The notes below the pieces were generated by a model. It was not told where the DNA came from. It was given only the letters and a program-made list of their open reading frames with translations, and searched no databases. From Candidatus Dormiibacterota bacterium (GTDB taxonomy: Bacteria; Chloroflexota; Dormibacteria; Aeolococcales; Aeolococcaceae): DNA of 38,194 bases. Position 1 is the stretch's first letter, and each line of letters begins with the position of its first letter. Made by a program: the position numbers and the translations under genes. The DNA lies in NCBI GenBank assembly GCA_003141695.1, contig PLNE01000155.1:20758-58951 (forward strand), given 5' to 3'. Positions 7,870-29,381 of the stretch are shown here, in pieces.

Positions 7870-9615
7870 TCACGCGGCGGCGAACATCTCCTCGGAAACC
7901 GCCTCGCCCTCGGCGCTCAGACGCTCCATCGCCTCAGGCACCACGCCGGTGGGGGCCAGCTCGCCGATGACCTTGCCGGTCTCGGGGTCGACCCCTGTCT
8001 GCTTGAAGGCGAAGATCTCCTGCATCACGACGCCGTCGGGGCCGGTGCCCAGAACCTCAGTGATGCTGACGATCCTCCGGGTGCCGTCGCGGAGACGCGA
8101 CTGATGGACGATCATGTTCACCGCCGAGGCGATCTGCTCACGGATCGCTCGTGACGGCAACTCCGCGCCAGACATCAGCACCATGGTCTCCAAGCGGCTG
8201 ACCGCGTCTCTCGGGTTGTTGGCGTGGAGCGTGGTCAGCGAGCCGTCGTGCCCGGTGTTCATGGCCTGGAGCATGTCCAGTGCCTCGCCGCCGCGGCACT
8301 CACCGACGACGATGCGGTCCGGCCTCATCCGGAGGGCGTTGATGACCAACTCCCGGATGGAGACAGCGCCGCGGCCCTCCACGTTGGCCGGCCTCGCCTC
8401 CAGGGTGACCACGTGCTCCTGGACAAGCTGCAACTCGGCGGCGTCCTCGATGGTGACGATACGTTCGTCCTCGGGGATAAAGCTCGAGAGCACGTTCAGC
8501 GTCGTGGTCTTGCCCGACCCGGTACCCCCGGAGACGACGACGTTCAGGCGGCCTCTGACGCAGGCCCTGATGAATTTCGCCATCTCGTCGGTGAGGGTGC
8601 CGAAGCTGACCAGGTCCTCGATGGTGAAGGCCTCCTTCGAGAACTTCCGGATCGTCACCGTCGGACCGCGAAGGGCAAGGGGAGGGATGATGACGTTCAC
8701 TCGGGAGCCGTCCTTGAGCCGGGCGTCGACCATCGGCGATGACTCATCCACGCGCCGGCCGATCGAGGAGACGATGCGATCGATCACCTGCATGAGCTGC
8801 TCGGTGCTCTCGAAGGTGACCGGGCTCCGGATCAGCTTGCCCTTCTCCTCAACGTAGATCTGGTTGGGGCCGTTGACCATGATCTCGGCGATGTCGGGGT
8901 TGGCCAGCAGGTCCTCGAGCGGGCCCAGTCCGAGGACGTCATGGATGAGCGTGTCGACCACCCGCAGGCGGTCCTGACGGCTCATGGTCAGACCCTGCTC
9001 GTTGATAACCTCGGTCACGAGCTCGGCGATGCGCTGGCGGATGACATCGGCAGGCGCGGAGTCCGTGTTACCGGCAAGCTCCTCGACGAGGCGCTGGTGG
9101 ACCCGGGATCGGAGCTGGGCGTACATGGCCCCGAGGTTTCCCCGGCCCTGCCCGGGACGGGCGGGGGTCCCGGTGCGGCTGAGCAGGGACGTGGGACGGC
9201 TGCCACCACCCGAGCCCCCGGCCTCACCGGTACGGTTCAGCAGCGAGGAGGCGCGGGTGCCGTCGGCCGAACCCGCGGAGTCGCCAGTCCGGCTGAGCAG
9301 GGACGCCGGCCGGTTGGCATCGCCCAGTCCGGGGGTTTCGGTGGGCCGAACCCGCAGCGGAAGCGGCGAGGTCTGAGCGGGCGCGGGGCGCCCGAATTGC
9401 GCCGGCTCCAGCGCTTGCCGTGGCGGGGCGACCGGGGCCGCAGAGTTGGCCAGCGAGGCACGCACCGACCAGGTCGGCAGCGCGGCCGGCGAGGCGAGCG
9501 GCGGGGATCCGGCGGACGGCAGCGCAAACGTCGGGGGGGTCGCGGGCTGCGCGGCCACGCCACCAGTTGGCGACGCGTCCTCAGCCTTCCTCTGGACGCG
9601 GTCGAGAAGCGACAT
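7870..9615 (-). CDS. cpaF: Tad pilus assembly ATPase CpaF/TadA (copy 2, extended N-terminus)
   Basis: This 581-residue protein begins at ATG 9615, preceded by AGAGG. The C-terminal 420 residues are a complete CpaF ATPase: a helical region (about 165-235), the IAEIMVNGPNQIYVEEKGK signature, Walker A GGTGSGKTT (about 363-371), the Walker B region RIVVGECRGGE (about 434-444) and the His box TGHDGSLTTLHANN. The first 160 residues are a Pro/Ala-rich extension. It contains three exact-period 19-residue repeats at 102, 121 and 140, each opening with RxxSLLxRTG, which echo the MSLLDRVQ start. The extension is probably disordered and may dock a partner. It differs from copy 1, which has a short N-terminus and a Gly/Pro/Met tail, so the copies are unlikely to be simple redundancy. 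Confidence 0.95.
   Translation of the reverse strand: MSLLDRVQRKAEDASPTGGVAAQPATPPTFALPSAGSPPLASPAALPTWSVRASLANSAAPVAPPRQALEPAQFGRPAPAQTSPLPLRVRPTETPGLGDANRPASLLSRTGDSAGSADGTRASSLLNRTGEAGGSGGGSRPTSLLSRTGTPARPGQGRGNLGAMYAQLRSRVHQRLVEELAGNTDSAPADVIRQRIAELVTEVINEQGLTMSRQDRLRVVDTLIHDVLGLGPLEDLLANPDIAEIMVNGPNQIYVEEKGKLIRSPVTFESTEQLMQVIDRIVSSIGRRVDESSPMVDARLKDGSRVNVIIPPLALRGPTVTIRKFSKEAFTIEDLVSFGTLTDEMAKFIRACVRGRLNVVVSGGTGSGKTTTLNVLSSFIPEDERIVTIEDAAELQLVQEHVVTLEARPANVEGRGAVSIRELVINALRMRPDRIVVGECRGGEALDMLQAMNTGHDGSLTTLHANNPRDAVSRLETMVLMSGAELPSRAIREQIASAVNMIVHQSRLRDGTRRIVSITEVLGTGPDGVVMQEIFAFKQTGVDPETGKVIGELAPTGVVPEAMERLSAEGEAVSEEMFAAA
8000..8010. other. placeholder-free note: no separate element inside cpaF copy 2 3' region
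   Basis: Nothing separate from the coding sequence is seen here. The entry carries no functional claim and can be ignored. Confidence 0.01.
9142..9312 (-). repeat. 3 tandem 57-bp (19-residue) repeats in cpaF copy 2
   Basis: Residues 102-158 of cpaF copy 2 are three 19-residue units beginning RPASLLSRTG, RASSLLNRTG and RPTSLLSRTG, each followed by a Gly/Ser/Ala-rich spacer of exactly the same length. The conserved SLLxRTG core suggests repeated short binding motifs. Confidence 0.85.
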
Positions 9616-10628: not shown

Positions 10629-12437
10629 TCAGGCGATCTGGATACCGCTCTCGGACCCGAGCGGCCGATCCTCGCGGAGGAGTCGAAGGATCTCCGCGGC
10701 CGGCACCGGCCGTGAGAAGAGGAAACCCTGGTAGGCGTCCAGGCCCTGGGTCTGCAGGCGGTGGAGCTGCTCCTCGGTCTCGACTCCCTCGGCGATGACC
10801 CGCAGCCCAAGGTTGCGGCCAAGGGTCACCACGGCGTGGAGCAGAGCCCCGGGATCCGCGGCGGGATTCGCCTCGTCCTCCAGGAGGAAGCTGCGGTCGA
10901 TCTTGATCGTGCTGACGGCGAGGTTGTGCAGCTTGCCGATGTTGGAATAGCCGGTGCCGAAGTCGTCCAGCGAGATGGTCACCCCCTGGCGCGCCAGCTC
11001 ACCGAGCACCTCGGCCGCGGCTTGCGCGTCGACCATGGCCGCCGACTCGGTGACCTCCAACTCCAGCAGGTGGGCCGGGAGCCCGGTCTCGTCCAGGCAC
11101 TCGAGCACGACCGCGACGAGGCTGCGGTCGGTCAGCTGGTGGGCCGAGACGTTGACCGCGACCCGCACGTCTCCCAGCCCGTCGGACCGCCACTGGGCCG
11201 CGTGCCGGACCGCGCTCCGCAGGACGAACTGACCGATCTCCGCGATCACCCCGATCTCCTCGGCGATGGGGATGAACCGGACGGGGGGAACCTCGCCGAG
11301 CACCGGGTGATGCCAGCGAGCGAGCGCCTCGAGCCCGACGATGCGGTGAGAGGCAGCATCGACCTCAGGCTGGAAGGCGACGCTGAGCTCGCCCCGCTCC
11401 AGGGCGAGGGGGAGCTGCTGCTCGATGAGGAGCCGGCCCTCGGCCTCCTGCGAGAGGGAGAGCTCAAAGCGGACCATGTGCTCCGCCGACATGCGCCCAG
11501 CGTGCTCTGCCACGGCGGCGTGCCGCATCAGCGTGGCCGGATTGTCCCCGTCCGACGGCGCCACGGCGATCCCGATCGCGGCGCTCAGCCGGAGGTGTGC
11601 GGTGGAGCCCGTGCAGGGAGCCGCAACGGTCGCCACGATGGAGCGCGCCATGTAGACGGCCTCCTCGGGGAAGACCAGGCCGGGGAGGAGGACGGCGAAC
11701 TCGTCGTCCGACCAGCGGGCGACCATCCACGCGTTCATCGGGTCGGCCGCGCCGGCAGGCAGCATGGACGACGGCGTGCGGCCGGCCGCAGCCTGGACAC
11801 AGTCCGAAACTCGCTCCGCCATCTCGGCGACCAGCTGCTCCCCCGCCTCCTGGCCGAGGGCCTCCACCACGGTGCGGAGCCGGTCGAGCGCGACCAGGAG
11901 CACGCCGGTCGAGCGTCCCGCGCGACGGCCGGCGCTCAATTCGCTGCCGAGCCGCCAGCGGAAGGTCGAGGCATTGGGGAGCCCGGTGAGCCGGTCGTGC
12001 GAGGCGTCGAAGTCCCTCTCCGCGGCCAGGCGATCGCGCTCCTCGGTCCACCGTGTGACATCGACCCCCACGGAGGTGACGCCGGTGGCCCGGCCGGCCT
12101 CGTCGAGGCTCGGCGTGGCCATCCAGGCCACGACCCGCACCCGACCGTCGCTGGTGCGGATCGGCGCCTCGACGCAGGCGGTCCCGTCCTTGCGGGTCAC
12201 CGCCCGGTCGAAGGCCCGGACCACGCGGCGCCGATGCTCAGGAGCGATCAGCACCTCATGCCAGAGACGGCCGCTCAGGTCGGTCCAGCGCCACCCCCCG
12301 AGAGCGAGCAGCTCACCGTTGGCGAACGCCAGGCGGCCATCAGCATCGGTGATCATGGCCAGGACGATCTGCCGCCCAGCGGTTCTATCGTCCCGACCTC
12401 CCGTCTCCGGGCGGCATCGCGGTCCCTCGGCAAGCAT
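10629..12437 (-). CDS. PAS-GGDEF-EAL protein, degenerate GGDEF
   Basis: The chosen ATG 12437 has AAGAGGT about 10 bases upstream; frames open further upstream would add low-complexity residues. The order is a PAS domain (about 25-130), GGDEF-like (about 140-320), then EAL (about 340-580). The GGDEF signature is RWSDDEF (about 241-247), so the two glycines are lost and cyclase activity is doubtful. The EAL half is intact: GLEALARW (about 368-375), NVSAHQL, EVTES, SLDDFGTGYS, IKIDRSF, AEGVET and a final YQGF. The likely role is c-di-GMP hydrolysis, with the GGDEF half perhaps a GTP-binding regulatory domain, as is known for several such fusions. No membrane segment is seen. It sits beside the TasA-like cluster and Tad genes, a common setting for c-di-GMP control of surface structures. 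Confidence 0.93.
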   Translation of the reverse strand: MLAEGPRCRPETGGRDDRTAGRQIVLAMITDADGRLAFANGELLALGGWRWTDLSGRLWHEVLIAPEHRRRVVRAFDRAVTRKDGTACVEAPIRTSDGRVRVVAWMATPSLDEAGRATGVTSVGVDVTRWTEERDRLAAERDFDASHDRLTGLPNASTFRWRLGSELSAGRRAGRSTGVLLVALDRLRTVVEALGQEAGEQLVAEMAERVSDCVQAAAGRTPSSMLPAGAADPMNAWMVARWSDDEFAVLLPGLVFPEEAVYMARSIVATVAAPCTGSTAHLRLSAAIGIAVAPSDGDNPATLMRHAAVAEHAGRMSAEHMVRFELSLSQEAEGRLLIEQQLPLALERGELSVAFQPEVDAASHRIVGLEALARWHHPVLGEVPPVRFIPIAEEIGVIAEIGQFVLRSAVRHAAQWRSDGLGDVRVAVNVSAHQLTDRSLVAVVLECLDETGLPAHLLELEVTESAAMVDAQAAAEVLGELARQGVTISLDDFGTGYSNIGKLHNLAVSTIKIDRSFLLEDEANPAADPGALLHAVVTLGRNLGLRVIAEGVETEEQLHRLQTQGLDAYQGFLFSRPVPAAEILRLLREDRPLGSESGIQIA

Positions 12438-12844
12438 CCGGTGGCGACCTCTTGAGTTATGCCGACCATCCCCGGGCATCCCCCCCCGGGGCATCGGCGG
12501 CAATGGTGGCCTGAAGGGATGGGGGGGAAAGACGCTTTCAGCCAGCCTGGGACGTCCAAGCGACAACAACGTCATCGTCACACGACCCCACCCTCCCGGT
12601 GTGACGGACGACGGCTCCCGGAAGAGCCCCGGGGGGCCCCACCGCGACGGCAGCCGGAGTGGGCGGAGCACCACGACGCCGCGAGGGTGAGTGCGGGGCC
12701 CGGGCACCGCAGTCGAGAGCCCTCCCCGGGCCAGGGGTCGGAATGGTCGGGTGGAGACGCGGTACGTCCCCGGCGCCCGACGGCGCGGGGCGGGGCGGCG
12801 CGGCTCACTGCACCCCGGGCCGCCCGGGGACCTGCCCGGGCCCT

Positions 12845-12880
12845 TCCTATATACCTATACCGAGCACTCCCTATATAGGA
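12845..12880. promoter_or_regulatory. AT-rich inverted repeat (possible operator)
   Basis: Perfect 9-bp arms TCCTATATA (12845-12853) and TATATAGGA (12872-12880) are separated by 18 bases. The arms are an AT-rich island in very GC-rich surroundings, so chance is less likely than usual. Arm centres lie 27 bp apart, about two and a half helical turns, which could suit a dimeric regulator. No gene is attached to it directly. Confidence 0.4.
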
Positions 12881-13021
12881 GACGCTCGCGAGCGACGGGC
12901 GGCGAGCGGCGGGTGACCGGCGGAGGTCGGCGAAGCTGAGCCGGAGACCACCCGCTCAGAGCGGTCTGCGGCACGGTCCCGTGACCTCGGCTCCGATGGA
13001 CCCCGAACGGATCAGATGCAT

Positions 13022-13047
13022 CGTTCGCGTTCACGGCTTCACGCGAA
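13022..13047. promoter_or_regulatory. inverted repeat upstream of TasA-like gene 1
   Basis: Perfect 8-bp arms GTTCGCGT (13022-13029) and ACGCGAAC (13040-13047) have a 10-base spacer. They lie about 50 bp upstream of the CCCCCCTAG box of the first TasA-like gene. The sequence just after it (CCCGTTACCCGCCTGT) recurs with one change before the third gene, but the dyad itself does not, so its role is uncertain. Confidence 0.3.
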
Positions 13048-13094
13048 CCCCGTTACCCGCCTGTCGCCCCCTCCGCGAGGGCTTCGTCAGATCA

Positions 13095-13132
13095 CCCCCC
13101 CTAGCCTGCTCCTTGCCGTCTAGTGCATTTGA
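13095..13132 (+). promoter_or_regulatory. shared bipartite upstream element, copy 1
   Basis: A C-run ending in CTAG (CTAG at 13101) is followed at exactly 19 bp by a second CTAG (13120) inside GTCTAGTGCATTTGA. The same two boxes with identical spacing precede the second and third TasA-like genes. The second box lies 57 bases before the ATG. The CGTCTAG core resembles -10 elements of some ECF sigma factor promoters, so a promoter or activator site is the likely reading, by inference. Confidence 0.65.
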
Positions 13133-13176
13133 CCTATCTGGCTAGAGCGGTCAGAGACTTTGAAGGAATGAGGATC

Positions 13177-13824
13177 ATGGAACGGAAGAGCAGACGATCG
13201 CTTCGGGTGGCCCTGGTGCTGGGTGCCGCCGTGGCCGGCACCGCCATGGTTGGGTTCGGCGGCTTGGCGGCATGGAACGCCTACACCGAGAACGCAGGCA
13301 ACAGCGTCGCGGCCGGCACCCTCGCCCACGCCAACGGACTGGCCTGCACGTCGAACCTGGGCACGATCCCGACCAGCGGGACCGGCTGGTGCGCCGCGAC
13401 GATCTCCGTCGCCGGCGTCGACCCGGCCACCTGGACGAACACCGTCGGCACCATCATCATCGCCAACACCGGCACTCTGAAGAGCACGTTCACGCTCAAC
13501 CTGCCGGCCGCGGCATCCGGCGGCCTCTGCGCCGACCTGACGCTCAAGGTGACTGACCTCAACTCCACCGTGCCGGACACCGGCACCGTGATAGCGACGA
13601 CCGCGCTGAGCAGCGCCGGCCTCACGACGCCCGTGAACCTCTATAGCAACGCCGGGACCCCCAGCCTCAACTGGACCAACGGCGGCGTGGCCGGCACCGG
13701 CACCGGGGTGACCGCGGACACCTACACCGTGACCGTGACCGCGGGCGCCGGATTCGCCAACAGCTTGTCGGACGCGGGCACGAGCTGCAGCTTCGGCCTC
13801 CTCTTCAGCCAGACAGCGGCCTGA
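13177..13824 (+). CDS. TasA/camelysin-like secreted protein 1 (SipW-type signal)
   Basis: A 215-residue product starts at ATG 13177 after a GAAGGA ribosome binding site. The N-terminus is RRSLRVALVLGAAVAGTAMVGFGGLAAWNAYTENAG, then NSVAAGTL. This matches the pattern of SipW-dependent substrates such as TasA: a basic start, a hydrophobic core, G-G-x-AAW/F, and an F/V-A-x-GTL strand soon after cleavage. The mature part is Thr/Gly/Ala/Asn-rich and beta-prone. It has four cysteines in positions shared with its three paralogues (LAC, GWC, GGLC, TSC) and ends CSFGLLFSQTAA. It is expected to be exported and processed by the SipW-type peptidase at 16704 and to form surface or matrix fibres; fibre formation is inferred. 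The codons for the signal region are almost identical to those of paralogue 2. A hairpin follows the stop. Confidence 0.85.
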   Translation: MERKSRRSLRVALVLGAAVAGTAMVGFGGLAAWNAYTENAGNSVAAGTLAHANGLACTSNLGTIPTSGTGWCAATISVAGVDPATWTNTVGTIIIANTGTLKSTFTLNLPAAASGGLCADLTLKVTDLNSTVPDTGTVIATTALSSAGLTTPVNLYSNAGTPSLNWTNGGVAGTGTGVTADTYTVTVTAGAGFANSLSDAGTSCSFGLLFSQTAA

Positions 13825-13842
13825 TCCTCCTAACGCCCCCAC

Positions 13843-13872
13843 GAGGCCGGGCAGGGCAACCTGCCCGGCCTC
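13843..13872 (+). terminator. hairpin after TasA-like gene 1
   Basis: A perfect 13-bp stem (GAGGCCGGGCAGG against CCTGCCCGGCCTC) with a GCAA loop starts 19 bases after the stop. Only a short pyrimidine tract (TCTATT) follows, so it may end or slow transcription or protect the 3' end. Confidence 0.65.
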
Positions 13873-14019
13873 CTCTATTGCCGAGGATGCCTAGCCCCGC
13901 GGGGGGCCGTCGCGGCGAGCCGGCCGGCGGCCGCGCTCAGACGCCCCGATCGCGTCACTGGGCCGGCCGACCTCCGTGACCCGGCTGTGGCCGGTTCCGC
14001 AACCCGTTCGTCTCACCGG

Positions 14020-14060
14020 CCCCCCTAGGCTGGCCAGAGCCGCCTAGTGCATTTGAACTA
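14020..14060 (+). promoter_or_regulatory. shared bipartite upstream element, copy 2
   Basis: CCCCCCTAG (14020-14028) is followed by CTAGTGCATTTGAACTA (14044-14060), with 19 bp from CTAG to CTAG, exactly as in copies 1 and 3. The second CTAG is 59 bases before the ATG at 14103. Similarity continues through CGGCCAGAACGGCCAGAAGG towards the ribosome binding site. Confidence 0.65.
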
Positions 14061-14102
14061 CTCGGCCAGAACGGCCAGAAGGCAGAAGAGGAAACGAGGA
14101 TC

Positions 14103-14753
14103 ATGGAAAACCGCAAGAGCAAGCGTTCGCTTCGGGTGGCCCTGGTGCTGGGTGCCGCCGTGGCCGGCACCGCCATGGTGGGGTTCGGCGGCTTGGCCGC
14201 ATGGAACGCCTACACCGAGAACGCCGGCAACAGCGTTGCGGCCGGCACTCTCCAGCACAACAACTACGTCAGTTCCAACTGCGCGTCCACCCTGGGCACG
14301 GCCCCGGTCGGCGTCGGCCCCGGCTGGTGCTCGGCGTTCATCACCGTCACCGGCGCGGACCCGGTCAATAACGTCCTGCCGATCACCGGCGCCGTCAAGA
14401 TCGATAACACCGGCAACCTGCAGAGCACCTTCTCAATGAGCATGCCGGCCGCGCCGACGGGCAGCCTCTGCACTGACCTCACGCTCAAGGTGGCGAGCCT
14501 CTCGGCTGGGGCGCCGGGCACCCCGTACCCGGTGACGGCCCTGACCTCGACCATGGGAGCGACCAGCGTGGACAACGACGCCGGCGCTCCGAGTGCGACC
14601 TGGTCGCCCAACGGTGTCGCCGGCACCGGCACCGGCGCGACGGGTAACACCTTCACCTTCACCGTCGCGTCCGGCGGAACCTTCCTGACCAACTCCGCCG
14701 ACTCGGGCCAGAGCTGCACCTTCAGCATCCTCTTCACCCAGACGGCCGCCTAA
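14103..14753 (+). CDS. TasA/camelysin-like secreted protein 2 (SipW-type signal)
   Basis: A 216-residue paralogue of the gene at 13177. From the basic start through AAWNAYTENAGNSVAAGTL the protein is virtually identical to paralogue 1, and at DNA level only a few bases differ over about 125, while the mature region has diverged strongly. The four cysteines are kept (SSNC, GWC, GSLC, QSC), as is the C-terminal SCTFSILFTQTAA strand. Conserved internal signatures include ITGAVKIDNTGNLQSTFSMSMPAA and DLTLKV. A ribosome binding site (GAGGAAACGAGG) precedes ATG 14103. The predicted role is an exported, SipW-processed fibre or matrix subunit. It has its own upstream element and its own downstream hairpin, so it is probably a separate transcription unit. 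Confidence 0.85.
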   Translation: MENRKSKRSLRVALVLGAAVAGTAMVGFGGLAAWNAYTENAGNSVAAGTLQHNNYVSSNCASTLGTAPVGVGPGWCSAFITVTGADPVNNVLPITGAVKIDNTGNLQSTFSMSMPAAPTGSLCTDLTLKVASLSAGAPGTPYPVTALTSTMGATSVDNDAGAPSATWSPNGVAGTGTGATGNTFTFTVASGGTFLTNSADSGQSCTFSILFTQTAA

Positions 14754-14771
14754 CCAACGCCTTGATCCGGA

Positions 14772-14802
14772 AGGCCGGGGCAGGATCTTCCTGCCCCGGC
14801 CT
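14772..14802 (+). terminator. hairpin after TasA-like gene 2
   Basis: A perfect 14-bp stem (AGGCCGGGGCAGGA against TCCTGCCCCGGCCT) with a TCT loop lies 18 bases after the stop. It is followed by CCTACTGT, not a strong T-run. It closely resembles the hairpin after gene 1, as expected if the whole unit was duplicated. Confidence 0.65.
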
Positions 14803-14950
14803 CCTACTGTCCGGGCCCTCCCGACGCGCTTCCAGCGCCCACCTCGAGGACCCGAAAGTGAACGGGGCAAACGCCGCTATCGCAATCACAGCATCAAGCG
14901 CATCCCGTTACTCGCCTGTGGCGGTATCGGGCGGGGCTTCGTGAGATCGA

Positions 14951-14992
14951 CCCCCCTAGTCTAACTAGAGGCGTCTAGTGCATTTGAACTAG
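14951..14992 (+). promoter_or_regulatory. shared bipartite upstream element, copy 3
   Basis: CCCCCCTAG (14951-14959) and CTAGTGCATTTGAACTAG (14975-14992) have CTAG starts 19 bp apart, identical to copies 1 and 2. The second CTAG is 59 bases before ATG 15034. Upstream similarity to copy 1 extends further (CCCGTTACTCGCCTGT and GGGCTTCGTGAGATC). Confidence 0.65.
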
Positions 14993-15033
14993 CTGCACAG
15001 AACGATCAGAAGGCACAAAAGGAACAGAAGATC

Positions 15034-15633
15034 ATGGAAAACCGCAAGAGCAAGCGATCCGTCCGGATGGCGCTCGTCCTGAGCGCGGCCGTGGCGGGCT
15101 CAGCACTGATCGGCTGGGGCGGCCTGGCCGCATGGCAGGCCTACACCCAGAACAACGGCAACGCATTCTCGGTCGCCAGCCTCTCCCACACCAACGTCGC
15201 CAACGGCGGCGTGACCTGCAACTCCACCAACTCCTCGGCCACCGCGGCCTCGACGCCCTGCAGCGTGATCGTGTCGGGCTCCAGCCTGACCTCCGGTTGG
15301 ACCGGATCCACCGGAACGGTCGTCATCACCGACACCGGCGCCCTCCCGAGCACGTTCTCCGTGAGCACCCCGGCAGCCCCGACCGGTGCCCTCTGCCCGG
15401 CCCTCAACCTGACCATCACGGGTGCGGACAGCGTCACGCCGTACGTCAGCCAGACGGGCATCGCGGCGATCAGCGCCACCCCGCTGAACACCAGCAGCGG
15501 GAGCACCGCCTGGGCCCAGACCACCAGCAACACCTTCAGCTTCCACGTGACCCCCGAGTCGGGGTTCAGCACCGACAACAGCGTCCCGGGTGAGAGCTGC
15601 AACTTCAACGTCCTCTTCACCCAGAGCGCGTAA
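15034..15633 (+). CDS. TasA/camelysin-like secreted protein 3 (SipW-type signal)
   Basis: This 199-residue paralogue opens MENRKSKRSVRMALVLSAAVAGSALIGWGGLAAWQAYTQNNGNAFSVASL. The signal region keeps the G-G-L-AAW pattern but is more diverged than in paralogues 1 and 2. The four cysteines are conserved (VTC, TPC, GALC, ESC), as is the terminal CNFNVLFTQSA strand; the shared core strand is GTVVITDTGALPSTFSVSTPAAPTG. It is Ser/Thr/Asn-rich. An AAAAGGAA ribosome binding site lies before ATG 15034. The expected role is as for the other paralogues: a secreted, SipW-processed structural subunit. A G/C hairpin follows the stop. Confidence 0.85.
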   Translation: MENRKSKRSVRMALVLSAAVAGSALIGWGGLAAWQAYTQNNGNAFSVASLSHTNVANGGVTCNSTNSSATAASTPCSVIVSGSSLTSGWTGSTGTVVITDTGALPSTFSVSTPAAPTGALCPALNLTITGADSVTPYVSQTGIAAISATPLNTSSGSTAWAQTTSNTFSFHVTPESGFSTDNSVPGESCNFNVLFTQSA

Positions 15634-15655
15634 CACCCCCAACCATGATCTGAGG

Positions 15656-15684
15656 GGGGCCGGGAAGAGCGCCTTCCCGGTCCC
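15656..15684 (+). terminator. hairpin after TasA-like gene 3
   Basis: A 12-bp stem (GGGGCCGGGAAG against CTTCCCGGTCCC, one G-U pair) with an AGCGC loop is followed by TTTCTCC. It is the third member of the set of hairpins that close each TasA-like gene. Confidence 0.6.
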
Positions 15685-15813
15685 TTTCTCCCCCAACCAG
15701 CCAGCCAGGGCGAGCGCGGCGCCGCCCTTCACCAAGAGCGCCGCGACCGTCTCCTCCCGTCCCACCCCCCGGAGGCGGTGTCGCCCACCGCACCCCAGTC
15801 TTGGAGGTTTCCC

Positions 15814-16458
15814 ATGTCCATCGAGCGGAAGAGCTCCGACCGCAGGCAGCTGCGTGCCGGGATGGTCTTCGTCCTGGTTGTCGCCGGCACCGCGCTCATC
15901 GGATGGGGCGGATTGGCGGCATGGCAGGCGGTTACCCAGAACAACGGAAGCACCGCCAGCACCCTGGGCGTCCACATGTCCAACACCGCGACCGTTGCAG
16001 GCAGCCTCAACCCGGTCACCTGCAACGACGAGAGCTTGCCCACCGCCTGCGGCGCCATCTTCGACGTCGGCGGCATCACCCCCGGCTACGGCCTGACCTC
16101 TGTCGGCACCGTGGCCATCACCAACACCGGCACCGAGGCGTCGACCTTCCAGCTCTCGCTCAAGTCGGCCACGGTGAGCGGCGACGACAGCTACTACACG
16201 TCGAGCGACACCACACTCTGCAGCGACCTCCAGCTCACGGTCAAGAACTCCCAGCCCACGCCGGTGGTGGTCTACACGGGCTCGCTGGCCTCGATGACCA
16301 CCCCGATCAACATCACCGACAACGCCGGGACCTTGGTCTGGGGGCCGGGCGCCAGCGACACCTTCACGTTCAGCCTGGCGCTCCCCTCCAGCAGCCCGAA
16401 CACCGACGAGGACTCGATGTGCACGGCGGCCTTCACCTGGGGCCAGAACGGAGCGTAA
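15814..16458 (+). CDS. TasA/camelysin-like secreted protein 4 (SipW-type signal)
   Basis: The start is ATG 15814 with TTGGAGG about 6 bases upstream, giving 214 residues. The signal region MSIERKSSDRRQLRAGMVFVLVVAGTALIGWGGLAAWQAVTQNNG keeps the GWGGLAAWQA core of paralogue 3. Four cysteines are conserved (VTC, TAC, TLC, SMC), and the protein ends CTAAFTWGQNGA, a changed version of the C-terminal strand. The internal strand GTVAITNTGTEASTFQLSL matches the paralogues. Unlike genes 1-3 it lacks the CCCCCCTAG/CTAGTGC element, so it may be expressed differently or by read-through, and it could be a minor, initiating or anchoring subunit (inference). Confidence 0.83.
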   Translation: MSIERKSSDRRQLRAGMVFVLVVAGTALIGWGGLAAWQAVTQNNGSTASTLGVHMSNTATVAGSLNPVTCNDESLPTACGAIFDVGGITPGYGLTSVGTVAITNTGTEASTFQLSLKSATVSGDDSYYTSSDTTLCSDLQLTVKNSQPTPVVVYTGSLASMTTPINITDNAGTLVWGPGASDTFTFSLALPSSSPNTDEDSMCTAAFTWGQNGA

Positions 16459-16478
16459 CCAGCCTCTGACCAGCGTGT

Positions 16479-16509
16479 GAGGGGACGGCGGCCCACCCGC
16501 CGTCCCCTC
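16479..16509 (+). terminator. hairpin after TasA-like gene 4
   Basis: A perfect 13-bp stem (GAGGGGACGGCGG against CCGCCGTCCCCTC) with a CCCAC loop lies 20 bases after the stop. It has no T-run. It would separate the substrate genes from the signal peptidase gene. Confidence 0.6.
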
Positions 16510-16703
16510 CTCGCCCTCAGGGTCGCGACCGCCGGCCTCGGCCACCACCGAGCCGGCGGTCGTCTCATGCCCGGGGGTGCCCACGTGCCCGCAACCGATT
16601 CGTTGCGCCCCGTTGCACGAGGCGCCGCCTGGGGGGGCCGACAATTGGGCGGCCGGCTCAAACCGCCGTCGACGGCGTGCGGGAGCAGCAGGGGAATTCG
16701 CTA

Positions 16704-18005
16704 GTGGGCAACGTGAGGGTGACGCTCCCCGAGGAGCTTCACGACTTGGTCAGGGACGTCGTGGCGGATCTCGAGTCCGCCACCGGCAGCCTCGGCCTGG
16801 GCGGCGCCCAACCTGCCAAGCGCGCCCCCCGCCGAGAGCGCAGGCGGGTCACCCAGGCGACGATCCTCCGGCTGCCCGAGCCGGCGGCGGCGCCTCCGGT
16901 TTCCCTGCCGGCGACCTCGGTGCCACCTCCCCCAGCCGCTCCCCGGCCGGCTCCCCCTCTCGCGGTACCAGCCTTCGAGAGCTCCGTACCGGTCCCCCCC
17001 GCCGCGCCGCGGCGGCGCGCCTTCCTAGCCCGAATGGAGGTCGCCTCGACCGTCCCCAACGTCGCCCTCCCGGCGCGCACCCGCCGCCTCCAGGTGGCCT
17101 GCCGGCGCGCCTCTCCGCTCGACGCCACCCGCATCTCCCGCATGCTGCGGGTGGCGGTGCCGGCGATCCCGGTGGCCCCGGCCGCGCTCACCTCACCGCC
17201 CGCGTGGCTGCTCGCCGCCATGGCGCCGTCCATACCCGCTCCCCTCCCCGAGGTGCCGACCGCTGCCCAGCCGGAGGCGACCACGGTGATGCTCGCGGGG
17301 CGGACGGCACCGATCCCGACCGAGACGGACACCCCTCCGGCCACCGTAGCTGCCACTACCGTGGCCGCCCCCACTGTGCCCGCCCCCCTCCCCGTCACCC
17401 TGCCGGCCACCCTCCCGCCGCTCCCGATGGAGGAGCTCCTCCCGGTCTGGCGGGCAGTCGGCGGCCACGTCGTCAACCTCCTGATCGCCGCCGCCCTTGG
17501 CCTCGTCACGATCTTCTGCGCCATCGTGGTCGGCCTGGTGGTCACCGGGCACCACCTGGAGGAGGTGGTCACCGGGAGCATGCAGCCGGTCATCCCGATC
17601 GGGTCCCTGGTCGTGACCGAGAGCCTGCCGGCGGGCCAGCTCCAGGTCGGCGACATCATGGTCTTCCCCAACCCCAACGACACCAAGCTCACCATCGTCC
17701 ACCGCATCGTCTGGCTGAGCCACGACCAGAGCGGCGACGTGCTGGTGCGGACCAAGGGTGACTACAACGCCCTCCCCGACCAGTGGACCCTGAAGCGGGC
17801 GGCGAACGCCGAGGCCGACAAGGTCATCGAGATCCTCCCCGGCGCCGGAACGGCCGCGGGCTACCTCCAGACGATCGGCTTCGCAGGCCTGGTGCTGCTG
17901 ATCGCCGGAGTCATCGTCTACTACGGAATCCGCAAGGTCCGCCAGATCCTCCACGAGGACGATCTCGATGAGGACGGGCTGGGTGCCGCGGAGCGCCTGA
18001 CATGA
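16704..18005 (+). CDS. sipW: SipW-type signal peptidase I with long N-terminal extension
   Basis: The C-terminal 190 residues are a SipW/ER-type signal peptidase: a membrane segment (about 252-279), box B TGSMQPVIPIGSLVVT with catalytic Ser292, box D VHRIVWL with His333 in place of the usual bacterial Lys, and box E TKGDYN with Asp353. A second membrane segment (about 388-409) is followed by an acidic tail. The Ser-His-Asp set is the hallmark of peptidases that process TasA-like proteins, and four such substrates lie directly upstream. The first 240 residues are a Pro/Ala/Thr-rich extension opening with VRVTLPEELHDLVRDVVADLE. SipW of Bacillus has no such extension. GTG 16704 is chosen because AGGGGAA lies about 9 bases before it; GTG 16677 is the alternative. 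The stop overlaps the next start by 4 bp. Confidence 0.92.
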   Translation: MGNVRVTLPEELHDLVRDVVADLESATGSLGLGGAQPAKRAPRRERRRVTQATILRLPEPAAAPPVSLPATSVPPPPAAPRPAPPLAVPAFESSVPVPPAAPRRRAFLARMEVASTVPNVALPARTRRLQVACRRASPLDATRISRMLRVAVPAIPVAPAALTSPPAWLLAAMAPSIPAPLPEVPTAAQPEATTVMLAGRTAPIPTETDTPPATVAATTVAAPTVPAPLPVTLPATLPPLPMEELLPVWRAVGGHVVNLLIAAALGLVTIFCAIVVGLVVTGHHLEEVVTGSMQPVIPIGSLVVTESLPAGQLQVGDIMVFPNPNDTKLTIVHRIVWLSHDQSGDVLVRTKGDYNALPDQWTLKRAANAEADKVIEILPGAGTAAGYLQTIGFAGLVLLIAGVIVYYGIRKVRQILHEDDLDEDGLGAAERLT

Positions 18006-19825
18006 GCTACGACACCCTCGGGATGATCCGGCGCGGCTGGCAGGACGGTGTCGCCACGGTGGCTCCTCACGTCCCCGGGCTCGCCGACCTTGTCGAGCAG
18101 CGGCTCGCCGAAGCCATACGTCTTGGCCGGCTCGACGAGGCCGGACTGCTCTCCATCGTCGACGCCGCCACCCAGCTGGCGGCCGACATGGGCGCGGTCG
18201 ACATCGCCCCAGCGCTCAGCAAGCGGCTGCGCCGCCACGTGTACGAGTACCTTCTCTCCCTCGATGCGCTGAGCAGCTCCGAAAGGAACAGGGCCGCCGG
18301 ACAGGCTCCCACCCCGGGCGACCCGGAGGCGACGAATGGAGCCGGCCGGGCCGCCGGGCTTGCCGAGATGGGGTTGGCCGAGGTGGACACCTCGATTCCC
18401 GAATCCAACGGCGGCGGACCTCACCGGTTCCCGCCCGTCTACCCCTTTGCGGAACCGAGCCATCCCCTCACCGAACCCACCTTTTTAGATTCCGAGTCGA
18501 CGTACGCCGACCTCGAGCCCACGTACCCCGGGCCGGAGTTCAGCTACCCCCAACCCGAGGCCCCGTATCCCCTTCCCGAGTCGCCGTACCCCCTGGCGGA
18601 GTCCCCCTATCCCCTTCCCGACGTCACGTACCCCCTGCCGGAGGAGGATGGGGCCAGCGGCGCGGGGGAGGGCGGCTCCAGATCGTCACCTCCTCAGTTC
18701 AGCTTCCACCTCGGCGATCCGGACGACGTCATGGCGAGCCGGGCACCGCAACCGGAGCAGGGCGCTCTGGTGGAGCCGGGGGGGCCCCGCGGAGCGTTCA
18801 ACGCCGATGAGGAGGTCCAAGCGCCGGCGGAGGTTCGGGTCCCGCCGAGCCGCCGAGCCTCATTCTCCGACCCCTCGACCTGGCCAAAGCCGGTGACGCC
18901 CACGCTGAGGGGGGCCCGCGATCCGCTCGCAGAGGGTCTCCGTGACGAGCCGCTCTCGCCCGACGACCTACCGGTGCCGTCCGCCCCTGACGGGACTCGC
19001 TTCCAGGATGTGGGACCGCGGCCCGCGGCTCCCGCCGCTGATCCACCGCACCGGAGCGGGCCGCCCGACGTCGCCAGATGGTCGTCCCCGTGGCCGTCTC
19101 CCGAGACGCCGCCGGTCGGACGGCGCGAGGCGCCGGTCACCGGCGCGTCGCCCGCACCGGGGAGCGCGGACTTCGAGCCAGCGACCGGGCCCGCTCACCG
19201 CGAGGTGCGCGAGGACTGGCGCGACGCGACCCAGGCATGGCTCCCCGCCAGCCCGTCCAATGGCGGCGGCGCCGCCCCGCCCGAGATCGCAGCGGGGTGG
19301 GCGGTGCGGCAGCCGGAGGCAGTGGAGCTGCACATGACGCCGGCGGGGGGCGGTGCAGCACCCGCAGCATCGGCCAATGACGTCCCCGAGCGTGACCTCG
19401 TCGCCCTCCGCTCCAGCGTGGACCAAAGGCTGCGGAAGAAGCGGTGCGACGATGTCGCCGCGGTGCTCCAGCAGGCCGCCCAGGAGCTGGGGGGCCAGGC
19501 CGTCGCCGAGCTCGCCCTCGACGCGGGCGATCGGTGCCGCAGCCTGGGCAAACGCAACGCGGCGCTCAACTGCTACCTGGCGGCATCCCGCGCCGACCCG
19601 GTCTACGAGCCCCCCCTCGCGCGCCTTGCGGACATCTGCATCGACGACCAGGACATCGATCTGGCGGTTTCATACCTGGAGCGCATCGCACGTCTCACCC
19701 GGCTACGCGGAGACAACCACGGCGCACTCCGAATCTACCGCAAGATCGCGACCATCGCCCCCTATCGGGACGATGTCCTCGAGATGCTGATGCGGGCCCA
19801 GACCACCGGTAGGATGGACCCATGA
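18002..19825 (+). CDS. TPR-like protein with Tyr-Pro heptad repeats, coupled to SipW
   Basis: ATG 18002 overlaps the TGA of the signal peptidase gene (ATGA), so translation is coupled. Of 607 residues, the first 100 form a helical domain (LADLVEQRLAEAIRLGRLDEAGLLSIVDAATQLAADM). Residues 145-214 are ten seven-residue repeats converging on xxYPLPE. A disordered Pro/Gly/Ala-rich linker (about 215-455) leads to a C-terminal helical repeat region (about 465-600) with TPR-like helix pairs such as NAALNCYLAASRADPVYEPPLARLADI and GALRIYRKIATIAPYRDDVLEMLM. No signal peptide is seen, so it is probably cytoplasmic. A scaffold or chaperone for the secretion module is a reasonable inference, but no function is known to me. 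The 168 bp that follow hold no obvious gene before cpaB. Confidence 0.8.
   Translation: MSYDTLGMIRRGWQDGVATVAPHVPGLADLVEQRLAEAIRLGRLDEAGLLSIVDAATQLAADMGAVDIAPALSKRLRRHVYEYLLSLDALSSSERNRAAGQAPTPGDPEATNGAGRAAGLAEMGLAEVDTSIPESNGGGPHRFPPVYPFAEPSHPLTEPTFLDSESTYADLEPTYPGPEFSYPQPEAPYPLPESPYPLAESPYPLPDVTYPLPEEDGASGAGEGGSRSSPPQFSFHLGDPDDVMASRAPQPEQGALVEPGGPRGAFNADEEVQAPAEVRVPPSRRASFSDPSTWPKPVTPTLRGARDPLAEGLRDEPLSPDDLPVPSAPDGTRFQDVGPRPAAPAADPPHRSGPPDVARWSSPWPSPETPPVGRREAPVTGASPAPGSADFEPATGPAHREVREDWRDATQAWLPASPSNGGGAAPPEIAAGWAVRQPEAVELHMTPAGGGAAPAASANDVPERDLVALRSSVDQRLRKKRCDDVAAVLQQAAQELGGQAVAELALDAGDRCRSLGKRNAALNCYLAASRADPVYEPPLARLADICIDDQDIDLAVSYLERIARLTRLRGDNHGALRIYRKIATIAPYRDDVLEMLMRAQTTGRMDP
18434..18643 (+). 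repeat. 10 tandem 21-bp (heptapeptide) repeats
   Basis: Within the SipW-coupled TPR-like gene, ten seven-codon units run without gaps from PVYPFAE through APYPLPE, SPYPLAE and SPYPLPD to VTYPLPE. Later units are more alike than earlier ones, suggesting growth at the 3' end of the array. Confidence 0.88.
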
Positions 19826-19993
19826 GCGCCCTCGGGGGAAGTGGAGAAGGCGCACTCATCTGTTACCGGACAGTGACATTCAGTTCGCCGGTCTCGGTCA
19901 CACTCGGGCGACCGGCCTCAGCCGAACCAACCGTGTCCCGCACCGCACCCAGACCGGGGTAACGGCGGCGCGGGTACCAGCAGAGGAAAGCAA

Positions 19994-20908
19994 GTGGCGA
20001 TCCCCTCCAACAAACCTCAGAACCGGATACTCCTCGTTGGCGGCATCATCTTCGCCCTGCTCGCGGGCGTGGTGGTCTTCATCGCCGTCTCCAAGTCGTC
20101 GAGCACACCTCCGGCCCAGCCCGAGACCCCGGTGGTCGTGGCGGAGACGGCCATCACCGCCGGCTCCCAGCTCTCGGCGGCCAATCTCACGACTCGCGAG
20201 TACCTGAACATCGACCTTCCGACCAACTACTACACGACCACCACTCAGGTGGTCGGAAAGACGCTCCCGGTCGCCGTCTCGGCGGGGACCCCGATCACCG
20301 AGCAGTTGCTGCAAACCACCGCCGGCGCGGGCGGCACCTCGACGCTGACCACTCCGGCCAGCCAACTCCCGATCGCGAACAACGACGTGGCCCTGGCCAT
20401 TCCGGCCCACGGCGCAACGTCGGACACCACCGTCGATCAGATGACCGTCGGCTACTACATCCTGGCCGGCGACCAGATCGACATCATCGGTGACCTGGGT
20501 AGCAGCACGTCGACCAGTCACCAGATCCAGTACGTCTTCCAGGACATCCCGGTGCTGGCGGTGGGCTACCCGGCAGCCACCACCACCACCCCGTCGGGTG
20601 GAACGGCGACGACCACTGCGGCACCGGCTCTGTCGGCGCCCAACTACTTCGTGGTCGAGATGACCAGGGCGCAGGCCGAGGAGATGACCGCGCTGCTGAC
20701 CGGCAACTACACCGCGGTCGCAGCTGGCAACCCCGCGCTCGTCCTCAAGTACGTGCTCCGTCCGACCAGTGAATACGGCACCACCAACTCGGCCGGCGAC
20801 TTCGTCCCGAAGACCGAGAACATCTCCGGCCCCGACACGACCATCCCGCCCGCAACCGACCAGCCCGTGACCCCCCAGTCGCTGTCCGGGGCGTTCACGA
20901 ACTCGTGA
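19994..20908 (+). CDS. cpaB: Flp pilus assembly protein CpaB/RcpC
   Basis: This 304-residue protein starts at GTG 19994 with GAGGAAAG upstream. A short polar start is followed by one membrane segment (about 12-32, LLVGGIIFALLAGVVVFIAV), then an SAF-like domain (TPVVVAETAITAGSQLSAANLTTREY, with VGKTLPVAVSAGTPITEQLL) and an RcpC-type region (VALAIPAHGATSDTTVDQMTVGYYILAGDQIDIIG). CpaB proteins act outside the membrane in Tad pilus assembly; in secretin-bearing bacteria they work with CpaC, which is absent here. It has a Thr-rich insert near 200 and a Thr/Pro-rich C-terminal tail. It is followed by tadB and tadC in the same direction with short spacing, so they probably form an operon. Confidence 0.9.
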   Translation: MAIPSNKPQNRILLVGGIIFALLAGVVVFIAVSKSSSTPPAQPETPVVVAETAITAGSQLSAANLTTREYLNIDLPTNYYTTTTQVVGKTLPVAVSAGTPITEQLLQTTAGAGGTSTLTTPASQLPIANNDVALAIPAHGATSDTTVDQMTVGYYILAGDQIDIIGDLGSSTSTSHQIQYVFQDIPVLAVGYPAATTTTPSGGTATTTAAPALSAPNYFVVEMTRAQAEEMTALLTGNYTAVAAGNPALVLKYVLRPTSEYGTTNSAGDFVPKTENISGPDTTIPPATDQPVTPQSLSGAFTNS

Positions 20909-20949: not shown

Positions 20950-21930
20950 ATGACCGACTTTCTTCCCCTGCTCGCGGCGGTTCTGGTGGCCTGCTTCCTG
21001 CTCTGCTGGGTCGCCCTGATCGCGACCCGGAGCCGGACTGAGGCCGACGAGGTCGCCCGGCGGCTGAGCGCCTACATGGGCGGTCAACGGCCCCCGCAAC
21101 CCGAGCGGGTCAGGTCCGGAAACCCCCTCCGCGACGCGCTCGACAGCTTCACCGACGCCCTCAGCCCGGTGGTCAACCGAGGCTCCTACGCGGGCAAGCT
21201 CGCCGAGGACCTCCAGAAGGCCGGGTTGCGGCTCAAGGCCTCCGAATGGATGCTGATCGTCGCCGGCCTGGGGGTTGTGGTCGGCGCCATCTTCTGGCTG
21301 CGCTTCGGGACGGTCTTCGCCTTCATCCCGTGCCCCATCGTCATCTGGATCGCGAGCGGCATCTTCCTCCGCTTCCGTCAGACCCGGCGCACCCGCGCCT
21401 TCGAGGGTCAGCTCGGAGACACGATCATCCTGCTCAGCAACGCGCTCAAGGCCGGTCTCTCCTTTGCCCAGGCCATGAACACGGTGGCGAAGAACGCGTC
21501 GCCACCCATCTCCGAGGAGTTTGGTCGCGCCACCCGCGAGATCGCGCTCGGCATCCCCGTCGACGACGCTCTCCAGCACATGGTGCAGCGCAACAAGTCC
21601 GAGGACTTCGACCTGATGGTCACCGCGGTGCAGATCCAGCGCGTGGTCGGAGGCAACCTGGCGGAGATCCTCGACACCATCGCCTACACGATTCGCGAGC
21701 GGGTGCGCATTCACGGTGAGATCCGGACCATCACGGCGCAGGCGCGGATGTCCGGCATGATCATCACGCTCCTCCCCGTCGGTCTCGCCCTCTTCCTCTT
21801 CTTCGTGGAGCCGTCTTACTTCGCCCCGATGGTCAAGGAGACCCTCGGCTGGGTGATGCTGGCCTTAGGTTCCATGAGCATCTTGGTGGGGACGGCGATC
21901 ATCCAGAAGATCGTGAGGATCCAGGTGTGA
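20950..21930 (+). CDS. tadB: Tad pilus inner-membrane protein TadB
   Basis: This 326-residue polytopic protein of the T2SF/GspF superfamily is a platform protein of the Tad pilus. An N-terminal membrane segment (about 4-24) is followed by a cytoplasmic stretch, two membrane segments (about 97-135), the T2SSF domain (LLSNALKAGLSFAQAMNTVAKNASPPISEEFGRATREIALG, then DALQHMVQRNKSEDFDLMVTAVQIQRVVGGNLAEILDTIAYTIRER), and two C-terminal membrane segments. It begins 41 bp after cpaB. The last four bases (GTGA) overlap the start of tadC, a sign of coupled synthesis in stoichiometric amounts. Confidence 0.93.
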   Translation: MTDFLPLLAAVLVACFLLCWVALIATRSRTEADEVARRLSAYMGGQRPPQPERVRSGNPLRDALDSFTDALSPVVNRGSYAGKLAEDLQKAGLRLKASEWMLIVAGLGVVVGAIFWLRFGTVFAFIPCPIVIWIASGIFLRFRQTRRTRAFEGQLGDTIILLSNALKAGLSFAQAMNTVAKNASPPISEEFGRATREIALGIPVDDALQHMVQRNKSEDFDLMVTAVQIQRVVGGNLAEILDTIAYTIRERVRIHGEIRTITAQARMSGMIITLLPVGLALFLFFVEPSYFAPMVKETLGWVMLALGSMSILVGTAIIQKIVRIQV

Positions 21931-22859
21931 TTGCCTACGTCGCCGGCGCACTGGCAGCCTGCTCGGTCGCCCTGCTGGCGCTCTGGCTCCGTCAGGCCCA
22001 GTCGCCCCAGGCGGACCTCCTGGAAGCCCGCCTCGCCCAGTTCACCGAGTCCGGACGCGCCGTCCAGAGTCTGGCCGAGGTGGAGATGACCCTGCCGTTC
22101 TTCGAGCGGGTCTTCCGGCCCACCCTGGATCGCTGGGGCCGCCGTCTGACCGCCCGGAACAACCAGCTGCGCACCCAGGCCCTGCAGGAGAAGCTCAACC
22201 TGGCCGGGAGACCCTGGGGGCTCACTGTGGGCGGCTTCCTTGTCCTGCGAATCATCGGAATCATCCTGGTCGGCTTCTTCGGGCTCGCCCTGGCCGCCCT
22301 GCTCCAGATGCACGTGCCCCAGCTCCTGCTCGGCCCGGCGGCCGGCCTCGTCATCGGCTACCTGCTGCCGGACGCCACCCTCTCCCGCCGGATCAGGGCC
22401 AGGCAGAAGGACATCCTGCTGGCACTGCCCTCGGCACTCGACCTCCTCACGATCAGTGTCGAGGCCGGGCTCGGCTTCGACGCCGCCCTGGGCCGGGTCT
22501 GCGACAAGTACCGCAACGCTCTCGCCTCCGAGTTCAACCAGGTGCTCAACGAGATCCGCCTGGGACGCCCGCGCATCGAGGCGCTCGACGACATGGCGAG
22601 GCGCAACAAGGTGGATGAGCTGAACGGCTTCATCCAGGCGATCATCCAGTCGGAGCAACTGGGCGTCGGCATCGCCAACGTGCTGCGCATCCAGTCCGAG
22701 GAGATCAGGCGGCGCCGCCGCCAGCGGGCCGAGGAAACCGGTCAGAAGGCCCCGTTGAAGATGCTCTTCCCGATGGCCTGCTGCATCTTCCCCACCCTCT
22801 TCGTCGTCCTTCTCGGCCCCGCCGCCCTGCAGGTTCTCCAGGAGTTCGGGGTCAAGTGA
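21927..22859 (+). CDS. tadC: Tad pilus inner-membrane protein TadC
   Basis: This 310-residue T2SF-family protein is the partner of TadB in the pilus platform. The start GTG 21927 overlaps the tadB stop by 4 bp. It has an N-terminal membrane segment (about 2-22), a central pair of segments (about 105-150, FLVLRIIGIILVGFFGLALAALLQM then a second), and the T2SSF domain (ALPSALDLLTISVEAGLGFDAALGRVCDKYRNALASEFNQVLNEIRLGRPRIEALDDMARR). A C-terminal segment follows (MACCIFPTLFVVLLGPAALQVL). The QxAPLKMLFPMACCIFPTLFVV ending is typical of TadC. It converges with the unknown gene at 22903. Confidence 0.93.
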   Translation: MIAYVAGALAACSVALLALWLRQAQSPQADLLEARLAQFTESGRAVQSLAEVEMTLPFFERVFRPTLDRWGRRLTARNNQLRTQALQEKLNLAGRPWGLTVGGFLVLRIIGIILVGFFGLALAALLQMHVPQLLLGPAAGLVIGYLLPDATLSRRIRARQKDILLALPSALDLLTISVEAGLGFDAALGRVCDKYRNALASEFNQVLNEIRLGRPRIEALDDMARRNKVDELNGFIQAIIQSEQLGVGIANVLRIQSEEIRRRRRQRAEETGQKAPLKMLFPMACCIFPTLFVVLLGPAALQVLQEFGVK

Positions 22860-26052: not shown

Positions 26053-26253
26053 ATGCTGAACAACCTTTATCAGCGCCTTCGTGGGCTCATGGTCCGCAAG
26101 ACTGAGCTCGAAGAGAAGGAGAAGGGGCAGGGTATGGTTGAGTACGCCCTGATCCTCGTCCTCATCGCCATCGTTGTCATCGTCATCCTGACGGTCGTGG
26201 GCCACCAGGTCAACAACATCTTCTCGAACATCAGCAGCACCCTGGGCACGTAA
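26053..26253 (+). CDS. flp: Flp-type pilin
   Basis: This 66-residue prepilin has a charged leader (MLNNLYQRLRGLMVRKTELEEKEKGQ), a processing site at KGQ-GMVEYALIL, and a hydrophobic helix (about 30-52, ALILVLIAIVVIVILTVVG). The G before the cut and the E at position 5 or so of the mature part fit Flp pilins. The mature protein is about 40 residues, small as expected for Flp. A strong AAGGAGGTG ribosome binding site lies 11 bases before ATG 26053, and a strong terminator lies just after the gene, so it is a short, highly expressed unit. The prepilin peptidase that would cut it is not in this window. Confidence 0.95.
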   Translation: MLNNLYQRLRGLMVRKTELEEKEKGQGMVEYALILVLIAIVVIVILTVVGHQVNNIFSNISSTLGT

Positions 26254-28093: not shown

Positions 28094-28103
28094 GGGACAC
28101 GCC

Positions 28104-29375: not shown

Positions 29376-29381
29376 CCCCCG

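Follow-up and report, generated by a model that had tools for sequence, protein, structure and literature searches.

A SipW-linked cassette of TasA-like proteins, candidate subunits of a surface fibre, within a Tad pilus locus of Dormibacterota

The locus analyzed here raises the question of why several secreted, TasA-like proteins and a SipW-type signal peptidase are encoded in the middle of a Tad pilus locus, and what their product might be. The window, i.e., the whole stretch of 38,194 nucleotides that was analyzed, lies on contig C34 of a draft MAG of Candidatus Dormi(i)bacterota (G000). The host lives in soil and belongs to the uncultured phylum Dormibacterota. Database records list the relatives that share these genes as Candidatus Dormiibacterota or Ca. 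Changshengia MAGs, and the isolate names of many of them contain bog, fen or palsa. The genomes compared were draft MAGs with a completeness of 58–98%, and genes in the relatives were called with a simple script.

Four ORFs on the plus strand encode the TasA-like paralogues A (13177–13824, 215 aa), B (14103–14753, 216 aa), C (15034–15633, 199 aa) and D (15814–16458, 214 aa), the last of which adjoins the peptidase gene. Identity to B amounts to 59% for A, 45% for C and 31% for D, in agreement with the initial annotation, which had described four paralogous genes with SipW-type signals. All four were placed in the family alignment; A (as an orthologous group), C and D were further assigned by their position in the tree, and B and D by structure models. 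The peptidase gene (16704–18005, plus strand, 433 aa, GTG start) is followed by a gene for a TPR protein (18002–19825, plus strand), which was identified by its profile match and by the gene order in relatives. Further downstream, also on the plus strand, are cpaB (19994–20908; SAF above the cut-off, TIGR03177 just below it at 69.7 versus 71), the T2SSF genes tadB (20950–21930) and tadC (21927–22859), both found by profile match, and the gene of the Flp major pilin (26053–26253; PF04964 above the cut-off). On the other side, profile matches revealed two tadA/cpaF copies (3191–4483, plus strand; 7870–9615, minus strand), and a gene for a PAS-GGDEF-EAL protein (10629–12437, minus strand) is divergent from the cassette, which lies between it and the TPR gene. 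Thus, all the components by which a Tad locus was recognized, TadA, CpaB, TadB, TadC and the Flp pilin, are present around the cassette, and the flanks named initially, cpaF copies and cpaB-tadB-tadC, were recovered.

Three consecutive CpaE/ParA-like genes, two of them with response-regulator receiver domains, occupy positions 26369–30614 of the window, and GGDEF-EAL and receiver-EAL proteins are encoded in the same Tad locus. The presence of CpaE/ParA-like, receiver and GGDEF-EAL genes points to control of the Tad pilus by c-di-GMP and a phosphorelay. No riboswitch or other RNA between the paralogues matched above the gathering score, and neither sigma-70-type promoters nor intrinsic terminators were found within positions 12400–20100.

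The start of the TPR gene overlaps the stop of the peptidase gene by ATGA, as had been noted, and the TPR protein, in which no signal sequence was seen, is probably cytoplasmic. It had also been regarded as a coupled part of the fibre system, and this part of the initial annotation had to be abandoned. In seven genera (g2, g5, g6, g7, g10, g11 and g14) the TPR gene comes before cpaB and is accompanied by neither a TasA-like nor a SipW gene, while in G010 it follows a GGDEF-EAL gene after about 250 bases, which is the same order minus the cassette. The TPR gene therefore belongs to the Tad genes, and TasA(n)-SipW forms a cassette separable from it. In another relative (G006) the TPR gene lies in pieces in different frames (L031, 3253–4835), which is either real or an assembly error.

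The motif GGLAAW is invariant in an alignment of 20 relatives. The putative cut in VGFGGLA/AWNA aligns gap-free with that of TasA (VGGGTWA/AFND), whose mature N-terminus was confirmed from the 8aur chain. Trp at P2' of the putative cleavage site (mature residue 2) and four Cys are invariant in 36 of 36 family sequences. An aromatic residue at P2' is cut poorly by the LepB-type peptidase; TasA, with Phe in this position, is a substrate of SipW (PMC10269814). The paralogues combine the two features by which SipW-dependent secreted proteins were recognized, an aromatic P2' and a gene adjoining a SipW. Their signal and early mature part is 35% identical to TasA 11–47, with a weak hhalign match in the N-terminal part only (probability 3.4, E 0.013). 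The signal pattern described initially, GGLAAW followed by GTL or a similar strand, is real, except that D has no clean GTL and reads STLGV; the hydrophobic pattern of the early mature strand is conserved in the family. Among 633 predicted genes of the loci collected, the SipW-type signal plus early mature strand pattern matched 27: 24 family members, two proteins beside another SipW, and one unrelated CvpA-like membrane protein (by chance). Since many of the matching genes are orthologues, this count shows specificity and not independent events. TIGR04088, the profile of the SipW-cognate signal, matched none of A–D in a search of their own genome, in which it had matches elsewhere.

The peptidase was assigned to the ER-type signal peptidases I, as it scored 65.5 with TIGR02228 (cut-off 51.85), also passed PF10502, and has Ser/His/Asp in place of Ser/Lys. 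The residues Ser292/His333/Asp353, which had been pointed out initially, are invariant in an alignment of seven sequences. With NF046067, the equivalog profile for SipW of Bacillus, the peptidase remained under the cut-off (51.6 versus 190 bits). It carries a proline-rich N-terminal extension of about 240 residues (window positions 16704–17560), in which the beginning and the part preceding the membrane segment contain conserved blocks; 262–333 residues precede the catalytic Ser in the Tad-linked copies, compared with 30–99 in the other ER-type peptidases compared. This extension may have a regulatory or docking role. In a SipW tree, the Tad-linked copies of g1 and g13 form a clade, and the remaining branches lack resolution. 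As to the origin of the Tad-linked cassette, g1 and g13 again group as a clade but g8 is a long unplaced branch, so that the cassette may have arrived once or may have been lost in between. A dedication of the peptidase to the paralogues, as proposed initially, is plausible, although the genome encodes four ER-type peptidases.

By profile, A–D are outside the known families: PF12389 (TasA/camelysin) matched none of them even at E ≤ 1, and no sequence-only link of the paralogues to solved structures was found. Predicted mature structures were therefore compared by fold, using Foldseek against 350,542 PDB chains. For the model of mature D (pTM 0.78), the best match was the TasA fibre solved by cryo-EM (8aur; probability 1.00, TMq 0.56, with a marginal E of 1.1e-3), and Pyrodictium CanA/cannula subunits appeared at ranks 2, 7 and 27 and the donor-strand pilin CfaB at ranks 12 and 24. 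The model of mature B (pTM 0.69) has a beta-sandwich core with low confidence for most of residues 1–41 and gave generic jelly-roll-type matches, including lectin or CBM types, with TasA absent from the best 50 matches listed. In both monomer models the mature N-terminus is of low confidence, as expected of an unpaired donor strand; simple disorder would also fit. The TasA-like nature claimed initially was thus supported by one of the two monomers modelled, D. We call the paralogues TasA-like on the basis of the predicted D fold and the signal design, and not members of PF12389, as they do not match its profile.

Gene content, conserved gene order, the catalytic triad, the restriction of the paralogues to one taxonomic family and the TasA-like predicted fold of D suggest that the cassette probably encodes a Sec-secreted, SipW-processed heteropolymeric surface fibre of the donor-strand (TasA) type, whose genes lie with those of the Tad pilus and may be regulated together with them. 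A–D would be exported via Sec and processed by the co-encoded ER-type peptidase, which would cut before A33-W34 (B numbering) and leave mature peptides starting AWNAYTENAGNSVAAGTL. This cut would free an N-terminal strand, AWxAYTxN...AGTL, which could pair into the beta-sandwich of the next subunit by donor-strand polymerisation and give a mixed fibre or matrix, with D, an old orthologous group of its own, as the candidate starter or anchor. Placed ahead of the TPR gene within a conserved Tad locus, the cassette is probably co-expressed with surface-attachment functions. In TasA, the N-terminal strand 28–38 completes the next subunit through contacts of F29, I32 and F39 (PMC9674648). For most paralogues, the counterparts of these residues are W34, Y/V37 and V/F45. 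The closest precedent for a mixed fibre is the TasA-CalY heterofilaments of B. cereus, whose subunits share a SipW (PMC13082335; PMC4292775). The second surface-fibre or matrix system proposed by the initial annotation is hence upheld by the D fold and the pairing with the peptidase, without the TPR protein as a part. Neither of the two findings that the initial annotation had named as refuting it, structures devoid of a TasA/camelysin-like jelly roll and relatives whose paralogues never accompany the peptidase, was encountered, although the B model did not retrieve TasA and two orphan paralogues have no SipW close by. Cooperation with the Tad pilus may be inferred from gene position only. The literature searched contained no fibre data for Dormibacterota and, beyond a review, nothing in which SipW and Tad pili are treated together.

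It is rather unlikely that the paralogues are SipW-processed surface proteins of the TasA fold that do not polymerise and serve as wall- or membrane-associated adhesins or coat proteins. Such a function would fit the four invariant Cys, which suggest disulphide-stabilised monomers, the existence of orphan single copies and the resemblance of the B model to lectin or CBM-type jelly rolls. However, it is TasA in its polymeric form that D matches best by fold, with other fibre subunits next, and the hydrophobic early mature strand is conserved.

The paralogue family is confined to the taxonomic family of the window (f1), bar weak matches in two other genomes of the phylum; the contigs were scanned once, with short conserved stretches, and similar cassettes in other phyla may exist. 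Nine genomes from five genera have TasA-like genes next to one SipW, which bears out the proposed pairing of paralogues and peptidase, while two orphan paralogues of G000 have no SipW nearby. TasA(n)-SipW lies directly upstream of the TPR gene in three genera only, with two to four paralogues. The initial annotation had proposed a search for the same gene order in related genomes: four further species of g1 (G002, G003, G004 and G006) and G018 (g13) have TasA(n)-SipW-TPR-cpaB-tadB as well, the contigs of G001 and G005 break within it, and one contig of G013 (g8) carries TasA x3-SipW-TPR. In G012 and G044 a TasA-SipW pair lies away from Tad, and after it comes the gene of a third protein, whose signal is SipW-like. 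G005 contains two copies of the Tad region including peptidase and TPR genes (L030 and L168, on C90 and C92), which reflects either a duplication of recent date or a MAG assembled from more than one strain.

This distribution also bears on a distinctly unlikely alternative, that the proteins are accessory subunits or tip adhesins of the Tad pilus which are exported separately and bind to Flp filaments. While the cassette does lie inside a Tad locus, overlaps a Tad gene by ATGA and is found at the same site in three genera, the Tad loci of seven genera lack it, and TasA-SipW occurs alone outside Tad in G012 and G044. Moreover, TadE-type minor pilins and prepilin peptidases are encoded elsewhere in the genome, and the paralogue signals pass no cut-off of the class III prepilin profiles. 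A replacement of missing TadE pilins by the TasA-like proteins was also considered and weakened, as TadE-type genes are present in 32 of 32 family genomes. A more elaborate form of the fibre, in which the four paralogous subunits build a defined hetero-fibre with physical or temporal coupling to the Tad pilus and the peptidase extension links processing to the Tad machine, appears quite improbable. Camelysin has this type of signal and fold, yet a role as camelysin-type metallopeptidases, which the name of PF12389 would suggest, is hardly conceivable for A–D, given that the HExxH motif is absent from all four and that PF12389 has no match.

In a tree of 36 mature sequences, D (together with the orthologue from G018), C, B, A and two orphan groups are separate from one another, and it is D for which a second genus has a clear orthologue. 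The split between D and the others predates the divergence of g1 and g13, which favors distinct roles over a recent expansion in copy number. The two orphan paralogues of G000 lie on C72 and C64, far from any SipW, and would need processing in trans. These single copies (L072, 9511–10158; L073, 9769–10407) are syntenic across the genus, and the L073 orphan adjoins a prephenate-dehydratase-like gene, as is also the case in G018 (L079).

Compared with known systems, the B. cereus sipW-tasA/capP/calY system (PMC13082335, PMC4292775) is the nearest model, with several TasA-type paralogues per SipW and co-assembling subunits. It differs in having two TasA-type paralogues plus CapP and no Tad locus, and its sequences belong to the known TasA/camelysin family, to which A–D do not belong by profile. 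The cassette shares with B. subtilis tapA-sipW-tasA (8aur, 5of1; PMC9674648, PMC10151520) the ER-type peptidase and the aromatic P2', and the TasA fibre is the best match of the predicted D fold, but the cassette has four paralogues, a signal that TIGR04088 does not recognize, shorter mature chains than TasA (about 170–185 aa) and the four invariant Cys. No TapA candidate was seen on inspection of the cassette genes; even in the genus Bacillus, TapA is not conserved (PMC10151520). Archaeal TasA-like or donor-strand fibres, i.e., bundling pili (AbpA) and Pyrodictium cannulae (CanA, 9h8b), are built from beta-sandwich subunits, CanA being the second-ranked match of D, but they are archaeal and no sequence relation to A–D was detected. 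With two TadA genes, CpaB, TadB, TadC, Flp and CpaE-like genes around the cassette, the locus otherwise resembles Tad/Flp loci, those of seven related genera differing in the absence of SipW/TasA genes. If A–D do build such a fibre, matrix fibres of the TasA type would also occur in an uncultured phylum of soil bacteria, made by a family that is missed by Pfam and NCBIfam. The locus would also be a natural case of a donor-strand fibre cassette within a Tad pilus locus, in which joint action of two surface fibres becomes testable.

A second SipW locus is present outside the window on the same contig, at about 61.6–64.7 kb of C34 (L023, 3614–6724). Here, beside the SipW at 63–64.5 kb, a TasA-like protein matches both PF12389 and TIGR04088, the latter at 64.4 kb; the locus encodes a SipW of 203 aa and a protein of 534 aa with a SipW-like signal and NHL/lactonase propeller matches. 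The same gene order is seen in G002 (L027) and, in part, in G001 (L032). In a distant genome of the same phylum (G061; L165, 7886–14149), two SipW-type peptidases are interleaved with three proteins carrying SipW-like signals, one of them 998 aa long.
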